Shown here piece after piece: positions 18,543-21,625 of a stretch of 64,000 nucleotides of DNA. The notes beneath the pieces are model-generated. The model did no database searches and was not told the origin of the DNA. It saw only the letters and a program-made list of their open reading frames with translations. The position numbers and the translations under genes are program-made. Within the stretch, counting starts at the first letter, position 1. The number at the start of each line of letters is the position of its first letter. Source of the DNA: Pseudomonas linyingensis (GTDB lineage: Bacteria > Pseudomonadota > Gammaproteobacteria > Pseudomonadales > Pseudomonadaceae); NCBI RefSeq assembly GCF_900109175.1, contig NZ_FNZE01000006.1, positions 186,001 to 250,000 of the forward strand, read 5' to 3'.

Positions 18543-18565
18543 GCGGGCGCCTGGTAGGCGCCCGC
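18543..18565 (-). terminator. Intrinsic terminator after the ATP-grasp gene
   Basis: A perfect 10-bp GC-rich stem with a GGT loop, 6 nt past the stop of the ATP-grasp gene. It marks the end of the three-gene cassette transcribed on the minus strand. Confidence 0.75.
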
Positions 18566-18571
18566 AGTGGA

Positions 18572-19558
18572 TCAGAGCTCGACCGGCTTGATATGGCCGA
18601 ACAGCTCCTGGGAGAAGCGCACGCGCTGCTCCGGGGTTTCCTCGATGCCCTTGGCCTTCAGTTCGGCCAGGCGTTCTTCCACGGCATGGGCGCGATGGGT
18701 CAGGCCGCAGTCGTTGGCGATCTGGATGTTCAGGCCCGGGCGGGCGTTGAGCTCCAGGATCAGCGGTCCCTTCTCCTGGTCGAGCACCATGTCGACACCG
18801 ATGTAACCCAGACCGCACAGCTCGTAGCAGCCGGCAGCCAGCTTCATGAAGCCGTCCCAGTTGGGCAGCTGCACGCCGTCCACCGCGTTGGTGGTGTCCG
18901 GGTGCTTGGTGATCTTGTTGTTCAGCCAGGTGCCGCGCAGGGTGATGCCGGTGGCCAGGTCGACACCGACGCCGATGGCGCCCTGGTGCAGGTTGGCCTT
19001 GCCGTTGGACTGGCGGGTCGGCAGGCGCAGCATGGCCATCACCGGGTAGCCCATCAGCACGATGATGCGGATGTCCGGCACGCCCTCGTAGCTGATGCTC
19101 TTGAAGATCGGGTCGGGGGTGACCCGGTATTCGATCAGCGCGCGGTCGCGGCCGCCGCCCAGCGAGTACAGGCCGGAGAGGATGCTGGACAGCTGCTGTT
19201 CGATCTCGTCGCGGCTGACGATCTTGCCGGAGACGGTCTTGAAGCGGCCCTCGAAGCGGTCGGCGATCACCAGGATGCCGTCGCCGCCGGCGCCCTGCGC
19301 CGGCTTGATCACGAAATCGTTGTGTCCGGCGATGATCTCGTCGAACTTCTCGATCTCCTTCTCGGTGGAGATGATGCCGTACATCTCCGGCACGTGAATG
19401 CCGGCGGTGATGGCGCGCTCCTTGGTGAGGATCTTGTCGTCCACCACCGGATACAGACTGCGCTTGTTGTACTTCAGCACGTAGTCCGCGTTGCGCCGGT
19501 TGATGCCCATGATGCCCTTGGCGTGCAGGGCCTTCCAGGTTTTGATCAGACCGAACAT
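18572..19558 (-). CDS. ATP-grasp alpha-L-glutamate ligase-like protein (RimK-related)
   Basis: A 328-residue ATP-grasp enzyme of the RimK-related ligase branch. Nucleotide-binding features are VIKPAQGAGGDGILV (lysine and glycine-rich loop), an acid pair in DMVLDQEKGPLILELNARPG, and the NARPGLNIQ Mg-binding loop. Such enzymes form an amide bond between a carboxylate and an amine, commonly adding glutamate or another amino acid to a peptide or metabolite; the substrate here is unknown. It has no signal peptide, so it works in the cytosol. It is third in a tight cassette with the seven-helix transglutaminase-like protein (4 nt upstream) and the aspartic-protease-like protein. Confidence 0.9.
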   Translation of the reverse strand: MFGLIKTWKALHAKGIMGINRRNADYVLKYNKRSLYPVVDDKILTKERAITAGIHVPEMYGIISTEKEIEKFDEIIAGHNDFVIKPAQGAGGDGILVIADRFEGRFKTVSGKIVSRDEIEQQLSSILSGLYSLGGGRDRALIEYRVTPDPIFKSISYEGVPDIRIIVLMGYPVMAMLRLPTRQSNGKANLHQGAIGVGVDLATGITLRGTWLNNKITKHPDTTNAVDGVQLPNWDGFMKLAAGCYELCGLGYIGVDMVLDQEKGPLILELNARPGLNIQIANDCGLTHRAHAVEERLAELKAKGIEETPEQRVRFSQELFGHIKPVEL

Positions 19559-19562
19559 GGCA

Positions 19563-21089
19563 TCAATCCTTGAGGAAGGCTTTGAAGCGGAACAGCTCGG
19601 TCAGGCGGTAGCCGCGGTAGCGACCCATCGCCAGCATGAAGCCCACCAGAATCAGCAGCACGGCCGGGAAGGTGAAGATGAAGTAGGTCAGCTCCGGAAC
19701 GCTCATCAGCAGGTGCGCCAGGGTGGCGGCGATCAGGGTGCCGACGGCGACCTTGAAGGCATGGCCGCCGCCGCGCTCTTCCCAGGTGATCGACAGGCGT
19801 TCGATGGTCATGGTCAGAATCACCATCGGGAATAGCGCCACCGACAGGCCGCGCTCGAGGCCGAGCTTGTGGCTGAACAGGCTGATCACCGCGATCAGCA
19901 CCACCACGAAGGTCAGCACCACCGACAGGCGTGGCAGCATCTGCAGCTTGAGGTGCTCGAGGTAGGAGCGCAGCGACAGGCCCAGCGCGGTGATGATGGT
20001 GAACAGCATGATGCCGAAGCCCAGCTGGGTCTCGCGGAAGGCGAGGGCGATCAGTACCGGGGTGAAGGTGCCGAGGGTCTGCAGGCCGCCGAGGTTGCGC
20101 AGGATCAGGATCACCAGCACGCCGATCGGGATCATGATCATGATCTGGTAGGTCTGCTGGGTCTGCAGCGGCAGGCCGTAGAGCGAGTATTCGAGGAAGC
20201 CCGAATCGGCCGAGGCGTCGGACTGCTTGGCCAGGCGGATGGCGTTCAGCTCGCTGGTGTTGAGGGTGAAGCTGACCTGCGGCTGCTTGCCGCCGTCGAC
20301 CTTGACCAGTTCGCCGTCACCCAGCCACCAGATAAGGCGGTCGCGCGGCAGGCCCTGCTGGCCATTGTCGGGGTTGAAGTACAGCCAGTTCTCGCCATTG
20401 AAGCTGCGCAGCCACAGCTCGGGGCTCTGGGGCTGGTCGGCGATCAGGCGGATGGTGTTGACCCGCTCCAGCGGCACGTGGGCGATGGACAGCAGCAGGT
20501 CGATCACCCGAGCGCGATTGGTGACCGAGGTGTCGCCGGCCAGCAGCAGCTTGACGTTGTCGTCGTTGAGGTTGTTGACGCGCTTGATGGTCTCGCTGAT
20601 GAAGGTCTCGACGTCGGCCGAATGCTGGCGGATGGGCGCCAGCAGGGCCTCGGCGGCGATCTGCTCGGGGCCGGCGATCGGCAGGCTCTCGCGGTAGATC
20701 GGCCCTTTATCCAGGGGCTTTTCCGCGGCAAAGCGCTGGGTCAGCACCATGCGGTAGTAAAGAGTCTGCGGGCCGCTGGCGCGGCGGGCGGACCAGGTCA
20801 CGCGGCGGTTGCCGTCGACATTATTGACGCTGACGCCGTAGTTGTTGGAGATGAAGCTCTCGTTGAGACTGACGAAGTCCTGAACCAGCGGCGGTACGAA
20901 CATCTGCACCTTGACCGGATCGCGCGGGTTGGCCTGGAAGTCGACCTTGGCGTCGATGTTCCAGACGTTGTCGGTTTCCGCCTCGGTGACCGGGATGCCG
21001 AGAACGAAAATCTGGTAGGCGGTGATCGCCACGCCCAGACTCACCAATATGGCGATGAGGACTTTCAGGTGCAAAGTGAGGGAGCGCAT
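19563..21089 (-). CDS. Inactive transglutaminase fused to seven transmembrane helices
   Basis: A 508-residue membrane protein. An N-terminal helix (about residues 8-31) is followed by a periplasmic region of some 270 residues containing an inactive transglutaminase-like domain, then seven hydrophobic helices in the last 210 residues. I see no Cys in the domain, in line with the inactive label used for this family. The pairing of this architecture with an ATP-grasp ligase and a pepsin-like protease is a known conserved neighbourhood in proteobacteria. It could bind or present a peptide or glycan substrate across the membrane, but that is inference. It starts 5 nt after the protease stop. Confidence 0.88.
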   Translation of the reverse strand: MRSLTLHLKVLIAILVSLGVAITAYQIFVLGIPVTEAETDNVWNIDAKVDFQANPRDPVKVQMFVPPLVQDFVSLNESFISNNYGVSVNNVDGNRRVTWSARRASGPQTLYYRMVLTQRFAAEKPLDKGPIYRESLPIAGPEQIAAEALLAPIRQHSADVETFISETIKRVNNLNDDNVKLLLAGDTSVTNRARVIDLLLSIAHVPLERVNTIRLIADQPQSPELWLRSFNGENWLYFNPDNGQQGLPRDRLIWWLGDGELVKVDGGKQPQVSFTLNTSELNAIRLAKQSDASADSGFLEYSLYGLPLQTQQTYQIMIMIPIGVLVILILRNLGGLQTLGTFTPVLIALAFRETQLGFGIMLFTIITALGLSLRSYLEHLKLQMLPRLSVVLTFVVVLIAVISLFSHKLGLERGLSVALFPMVILTMTIERLSITWEERGGGHAFKVAVGTLIAATLAHLLMSVPELTYFIFTFPAVLLILVGFMLAMGRYRGYRLTELFRFKAFLKD

Positions 21090-21094
21090 CGAGG

Positions 21095-21625
21095 TTACTC
21101 GTCCGAGTGTGCAGCGTTGGAACAGCCGGGCTTGCCGGCCGCGTATTTGAGACTGGGGTCGACCAGGGCACCGAAGCGTTTGAGGGCCTCGGAGCCGATC
21201 AGGAGCGGGTATTGGAACGCACTGCGGTCGGTCAGGTTCACTTCGATGGTGCGTAGCGTGTTGCCCATGCAGACATCCAGTTCGATCACCGGCCGCGCAG
21301 TATAGGTTTTGCCTTCGTCAGGGTCGAAATCGCCGGCTCGCCGCTTGATCTTGCTGATCCGCGCCAACGGTTTCTCGATCGGTGCGGTGTCGTCGCTGCC
21401 GATGTTGAAGCGGACCCAGGTATCACCGTTGCGCTTGAAACGCTTGATGTTGCGGGCGCCAAGCGAGGCGGTCTTGGCGCCGGTGTCGAGTTTGGCAGCC
21501 AGAACGTCGTCGAGTTCCGGAAGGCTGGCATATTCGTTGAGGCCGTAAACGTTTTTTTCGGCAGCAAGGCTAAGGCCGCAGGGCATCAGCAGGCTGAGTA
21601 GCAAGACAAGGGGCTTGAGTCTCAT
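21095..21625 (-). CDS. Periplasmic RimB/COG4067-type aspartic-protease-fold protein
   Basis: A 176-residue protein with a cleavable signal peptide (about residues 1-21, ending near LSLAA) and a single retropepsin-like domain. The DTGAKTASL motif (Asp47) matches the catalytic Asp-Thr-Gly of aspartic proteases, and a hydrophobic LLIGSEAL segment follows about 100 residues later, as in retropepsins that act as dimers. The family was originally named ATP-dependent zinc protease (RimB-like), a label the sequence does not support. It is the first gene of the cassette, so protease, membrane and ligase proteins are coexpressed. Confidence 0.88.
   Translation of the reverse strand: MRLKPLVLLLSLLMPCGLSLAAEKNVYGLNEYASLPELDDVLAAKLDTGAKTASLGARNIKRFKRNGDTWVRFNIGSDDTAPIEKPLARISKIKRRAGDFDPDEGKTYTARPVIELDVCMGNTLRTIEVNLTDRSAFQYPLLIGSEALKRFGALVDPSLKYAAGKPGCSNAAHSDE

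Follow-up and report, generated by a model that had tools for sequence, protein, structure and literature searches.

An rloABC operon of Pseudomonas linyingensis and its live-looking, envelope-linked relatives

What do a secreted protease, a membrane protein with a broken enzyme domain and a cytosolic ligase do together? The question is raised by three genes of Pseudomonas linyingensis at positions 18,572 to 21,625 of a stretch of 64,000 nucleotides, here called the window (RefSeq assembly GCF_900109175.1, contig NZ_FNZE01000006.1, positions 186,001 to 250,000). Profile scores from Pfam and NCBIfam, the latter of which names the first two proteins RloA and RloB, identify the genes as an rloABC operon, an unremarkable ortholog of a system already known. 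An earlier note on this DNA had regarded the genes as an under-described system, but the orthologous operon of P. aeruginosa was named rloABC in 2025 and characterized with mutants, crystal structures and cleavage assays (mBio 2025, PMC12239564). Some rloBC relatives in other bacteria, with a live-looking RloB and envelope genes alongside, look like a new variant of this system.

The open reading frame analysis placed rloA, rloB and rloC next to one another on the minus strand, each with an ATG start and with gaps of 5 nt (rloA/rloB) and 4 nt (rloB/rloC), as the earlier note had described. The exported aspartic-protease-like protein that it proposed is encoded by rloA (21095..21625, 176 aa), a secreted retropepsin-like aspartic peptidase matching PF05618 at 141.8 bits and NF052262 at 305.8 bits (cut-off 280), with a single hydrophobic, signal-peptide-like N-terminal segment by hydropathy (residues 1-22; 21560..21625, minus strand). 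RloB (19563..21089, 508 aa; NF052267 at 1040.7 bits, cut-off 900) likewise agrees with the proposed inactive transglutaminase fused to membrane helices. Its Transglut_i_TM domain PF14400 spans residues 25-184 (20538..21017, 164.3 bits) and its 7TM_transglut domain PF14402 residues 260-505 (19575..20312, 325.2 bits), and in the alignment (row L002) the Cys/His/Asp triad positions, which lie within PF14400 and just past its end, are occupied by V/E/N. By hydropathy, RloB has a single hydrophobic segment near its N-terminus and a further cluster spanning residues 311-491; the helix number of seven is that of the Pfam family description and not a count made in the window protein. RloC (18572..19558, 328 aa; PF14397 at 328 bits, TIGR02291 at 556.1 bits, cut-off 314.2) has no hydrophobic segment by hydropathy and keeps its ATP-grasp residues, in line with a cytosolic ATP-grasp ligase. 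Only the terminator fared less well: a strong, G+C-rich 10-bp hairpin is present 3' of rloC (18543..18565, minus strand; about -23 to -25 kcal/mol) and is a possible terminator, but the next letters are TTCTCC without a T-run, and the hairpin is absent from the list of the terminator scan. The name RloC is also borne by an unrelated anticodon nuclease (PMC2610378).

Rather than co-occurring rarely or having unrelated partners, the genes recur together across the phylum. In a sample of 299 genomes, PF14402 (RloB) was found in 54, and strong TIGR02291 matches were confined to these same 54, beside rloB each time (49 over the cut-off and 5 at 250-292 bits; at most 56 bits in the remaining genomes), so that the two genes adjoin in 54/54. 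In 48/54 the gene immediately upstream of rloB encodes a PF05618 protein, the six exceptions being G169, G060, G096, G156, G087 and G128, and the PF05618 family overall occurs in 110/299. The window's own family contributes 14 genomes to the sample, each with all three genes. In this sample, which is less biased than the named set described below, the triad was read in 43 of the 54 genomes and is dead in 38, live in 3 and missing with its domain in 2; the other 11 genomes all belong to the window's family.

The P. aeruginosa operon resembles the window in gene order, families, NCBIfam models, the dead transglutaminase and the secreted DTGA protease (PMC12239564). In vitro, the P. aeruginosa RloA cleaves runs of 8 or 10 glutamates, not of 6 or fewer, and it also cleaves RimB substrates and polyglutamate on proteins, including RpsF carrying eight glutamates (PMC12239564). 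Strain PA14 has three redundant secreted RloAs, RloA2 and RloA3 being the other two, while the window genome has one extra secreted paralog of RloA type (L003), which falls below every NCBIfam cut-off. Cells that lack all three RloAs fail to grow in low salt, are short and wide, produce little biofilm and show beta-lactam sensitivity; additional loss of rloB or rloC restores growth fully and the other phenotypes partly (PMC12239564). The same study describes RloB as an inactive transglutaminase, with 96% of RloB hits in Proteobacteria, and reports that RloA needs catalysis for its role, that its Glu-binding arginine mutants fail in vitro and in vivo, and that the phenotypes point to the cell wall; its authors found no genome-encoded RloA substrate (PMC12239564). 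Elsewhere, a suppressor table on exopolysaccharide in flagellar mutants gives 2, 4 and 1 transposon insertions for PA1766, PA1767 and PA1768 (PMC7314104), and disruption of an inactive-transglutaminase gene of Shewanella led to more vesicles (PMC12096838).

The relatives that depart from this picture came from a species-genome collection, scanned with an alignment whose first sequence is a divergent RloB of the live type; the named set below consists of the best 80 of at least 579 confirmed matches to that query. In an alignment of these with the RloBs already collected, 17 named loci keep the transglutaminase Cys and His in RloB, 13 with a C-H-D triad (L059-L067, L072-L075) and four with C-H-C, Cys standing for Asp (L068-L071; Myxococcota, Acidobacteriota and Zixiibacteriota records). 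They cover seven phyla (Pseudomonadota, Myxococcota, Chlorobiota, Bacteroidota, Acidobacteriota, Zixiibacteriota and Omnitrophota), and 14 of the 17 are metagenome-assembled genomes by record title. The Pfam family Transglut_core scores 55.8 bits in the RloB of L034, and 25 of 48 RloBs, dead ones included, match it at E<=10.

In the named set, no live-looking triad was seen with an adjoining protease gene: rloA lies upstream of rloB in 0/14 testable Cys-His-kept loci versus 54/60 testable dead ones, where it is always directly upstream. Contig-edge loci, none of which showed rloA, were dropped from this count (L068, L069 and L070 among the live, L102, L111 and L125 among the dead). The Fisher value of 8.5e-11 for this split is not to be read as strong statistics, because one branch parts the two groups, the independent-pairs test is powerless and the named set is the best 80 of at least 579 matches. 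Across the whole genomes of the 17 Cys-His-kept loci, where secreted and cytosolic proteins were told apart by eye, 11 have no PF05618 match at all and five (G299, G305, G310, G313, G314) have a single one beside rimK. A tree of the helix domain plus RloC (90 rows, quick search, several long branches, midpoint root for drawing only) has one branch, with an SH-aLRT support of 95, that divides a live group of 18 rows from an rloA group of 60, with 12 rows in neither. Across the whole tree, the triad must have changed at least 3 times, rloA at least 5 times and a tetratricopeptide repeat (TPR) gene next to rloC at least 4 times.

This TPR gene, which is not in the window's operon, marks a second difference of the live relatives. 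Of the live named loci, 16 have at least 500 bases after rloC, and in 10 of these a TPR protein is encoded directly there (L068, L069 and L072-L075 being without it), compared with 0/95 other rows, in which some genomes are counted twice; the TPR proteins of the rloBC relatives also match PF24575 TPR_Slam. A barrel profile built from two seeds only, L034 and L042, matches the gene after the TPR gene in L060, L061, L062 (the genome of seed L034) and, at a cut end, L064, with further matches in L167 and L168. It gave no match in L065, L067, L070 and L073, of which L067 and L073 encode a signal-like protein, about 380 aa long, at the barrel position, and the L059 and L063 loci end within the TPR gene. 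Among the barrel candidates scanned, only L060 passed a Pfam cut-off (PF11854). Directly upstream of rloB, L060, L061 and L071 encode a large protein (TPR repeats confirmed for L060 and L071), and L059, L062, L042 and L167 a short PepSY-like membrane protein.

A shortened RloB occurs in another, far lineage (family f42, 5/79 genomes), and Pfam found no transglutaminase domain in the two examples scanned. In all five loci, a predicted barrel with a C-terminal Phe is encoded directly upstream of RloB and rloC lies downstream (profile seeds L037 and L041, matches L164-L166). Judged by their sequences, the barrels of both lineages are predicted to be outer-membrane proteins. In one f42 locus (L041:4674-8922), rimB, rimK, the predicted barrel, the shortened RloB and rloC stand in one row; its RimB scores 115 bits, under the cut-off of 200, and its RimK matches PF18030 at 141.4 bits. 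In L037, the rimB-rimK pair is missing and only the barrel, RloB and rloC are present. Neither the live RloB form nor TPR or barrel neighbours were recognised in the literature searched, which did not extend to bioRxiv or to a 2009 amidoligase survey that may describe some of them.

RloC residues K46, K85, E143, D256, E269, N271 and R273 are invariant in 24/24 aligned rows and, as in ATP-grasp enzymes generally, are taken to be the catalytic ones. Compared with solved structures, the RloC profile is closest to RimK (5zct and 4iwx), alpha-L-glutamate ligases (7qys, 7qyr) and cyanophycin synthases, followed by TTLL polyglutamylases. Window RloA carries its catalytic motif at D47 of DTG and a cysteine pair, Cys119 and Cys168; a hydrophobic N-terminus is clear in 49 of 55 RloAs and not in six. 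R111 and R134 are invariant in all 55 and presumably correspond to the published R114 and R137. In the window genome (L169:3973-6242, contig 42), the second secreted RloA-type protease adjoins a glutamate-synthase-like gene (PF01645, 273.9 bits). A functional link between the two was considered and rejected: among the places listed for 14 family members the pairing occurs only in the window genome, and it is treated as chance because it is not seen in the 13 relatives compared.

A retropepsin and an ATP-grasp ligase also make up RimB-RimK, the polyglutamylation system of ribosomal protein S6, and the window genome has a separate rimB-rimK pair (L001, contig 42) whose RimB scores 262.8 bits against the NF052261 cut-off of 200. 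Unlike that pair, window RloA has a signal-like N-terminus and reaches only 77.9 bits with NF052261, RloC lacks the preATP-grasp domain PF18030 among its Pfam matches at E<=1, and RloB has no counterpart. PgsBCA and CapBCA, poly-gamma-glutamate synthases, likewise combine a ligase, a membrane protein and a hydrolase for a glutamate polymer. Their likeness to rlo is one of idea only: RloC is an ATP-grasp protein, and homology between the RloB helices and CapC/PgsC, suggested by a CapC-like helix motif, was tested and not found. Profile comparison by hhalign gave RloB and CapC probabilities of 1.8% and 3.9% with a thin CapC profile (4 repeats, 2 genomes) that might miss a distant link, the observed score of 20.6 was approached by one of 20 column shuffles of the RloB side (20.4), and the CapC family, PF14102, was not among the 25 of 26 families listed for 48 RloBs at E<=10. 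Two loci of family f36, to which some live-RloB loci also belong, contain a long open frame that bears a pair of CapC-like repeats (L054 and L055 of G052 and G056; PF14102 twice). Export modules that combine a TPR protein with an outer-membrane barrel include AlgK/AlgE, PelB, PgaA and Slam; some rloBC relatives, with their TPR protein and predicted barrel, resemble these modules, while the window's operon has no such part.

We favour, at a probability of roughly 50%, a model in which a polyglutamate-like chain is made by RloC, handed on to the periplasm by RloB and cleaved by RloA or by a live RloB domain. RloC, a distant relative of RimK among the ATP-grasp ligases, would most likely join glutamates or a Glu-rich acidic chain in the cytosol, and the RloB helix domain would most likely carry or present the chain through the inner membrane. 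Periplasmic RloA would then cut chains of at least eight glutamates, as the P. aeruginosa protein does in vitro. Both rloB and rloC act before the harm of RloA loss (PMC12239564); their removal would abolish the product, and without any RloA the uncut product would accumulate and become harmful in low salt, where an uncut polyanion would disturb the periplasm. The earlier note's reading of the layout, with making in the cytosol, handling at the membrane and trimming outside, is consistent with these published genetics; as for its substrate "made or amidated", a polyglutamate-like chain, probably made by RloC, is the better wording. In a group of distant relatives, RloB's own Cys-His transglutaminase-like domain may do the cutting or a transfer, and the chain may reach the surface. 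In the lineage to which Pseudomonas belongs, the domain would have died in a single switch on the unrooted tree, and the secreted retropepsin would stand in for it.

Several observations weigh against this reading. What RloC joins and the transport by RloB are steps we infer, no natural RloA substrate is known, and the similarity of RloC to RimK is weak (best E 6.6e-10, short stretches only). The split between the Cys-His pair and rloA amounts to one switch on the tree and not to repeated events, and the independent-pairs test gives 2 to 3 pairs and p 1, without power; that the live form is older than the dead one is likewise something we infer, from an unrooted tree. Genome G300 combines a live RloB with two PF05618 matches, one secreted-looking and unlinked, the other located at a contig end and, from its N-terminus, cytosolic-looking. 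Conversely, nine dead named loci have no neighbouring rloA; a secreted-looking copy lies elsewhere in G319 (L106) and G324 (L111), and no secreted retropepsin was recognised in the genomes of the dead-triad loci L077, L100, L102, L108, L118, L125 and L130 (L102 and L125 at contig edges). The RloBs without a transglutaminase domain (L037, L041, L164-L166) also have no adjoining secreted rloA.

The glutamates might instead be a tag, added by RloC to a specific carrier such as a membrane protein, lipid or cell-wall precursor, presented outside by RloB and removed by RloA in a periplasmic parallel to RimK-RimB on S6. Cleavage of polyglutamate on proteins such as RpsF and the cell-wall phenotypes (PMC12239564) speak for this possibility, as do the nearest solved relatives of RloC, which are tagging or chain-making glutamate ligases; we consider it doubtful, since no carrier is known, and a conserved fourth gene as carrier was not recognised beside the loci listed, though no systematic search for one was made. 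A sensor role for RloB, in which the dead domain would bind a periplasmic peptide, RloC and RloA would tune the state of RloB and no polymer would be made, fits a common layout of sensors, a membrane protein bearing an inactive enzyme domain, but seems improbable given the catalytic residues kept in RloC, the Cys-His pair kept in RloB of some relatives and an RloA that works only if catalytic (PMC12239564). Just as improbable is a product not based on glutamate, RloC joining another amino acid or modifying a sugar-bearing lipid and the preference of RloA for Glu runs being incidental. The Pfam label of the RloC family, 'Sugar-transfer associated ATP-grasp', and the weak match of RloC to glutamate ligases would fit such a product, whereas the invariance of R111 and R134, the matching arginines, in all 55 RloAs argues against it. 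So does the failure of the Glu-binding arginine mutants in vitro and in vivo (PMC12239564).

The polyglutamate-like chain may also belong to a wider trans-envelope system, a tentative and rather unlikely extension: RloC would make a Glu-rich chain, RloB would move it, the live RloB cysteine domain would cut or attach it, and the TPR protein and barrel would deliver it to the surface. The rloABC operon would then be a reduced branch, the one with Pseudomonas, in which the domain died once, a secreted RimB-type retropepsin replaced it and the outer parts were lost.

In summary, the window carries an operon of a kind that in Pseudomonas influences survival in low salt, the shape of the cells, biofilm and sensitivity to beta-lactams (PMC12239564). 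Because the live-form relatives have live-looking RloB sites and candidate envelope parts in their operons, the search for the product may be easier there. If the step of the dead domain was indeed taken over by an unrelated protease, this would explain the partnership of RloB and RloA, and if the wider trans-envelope system exists, it would represent a class of polypeptide export that differs from the sugar exporters known so far and occurs in at least seven phyla.

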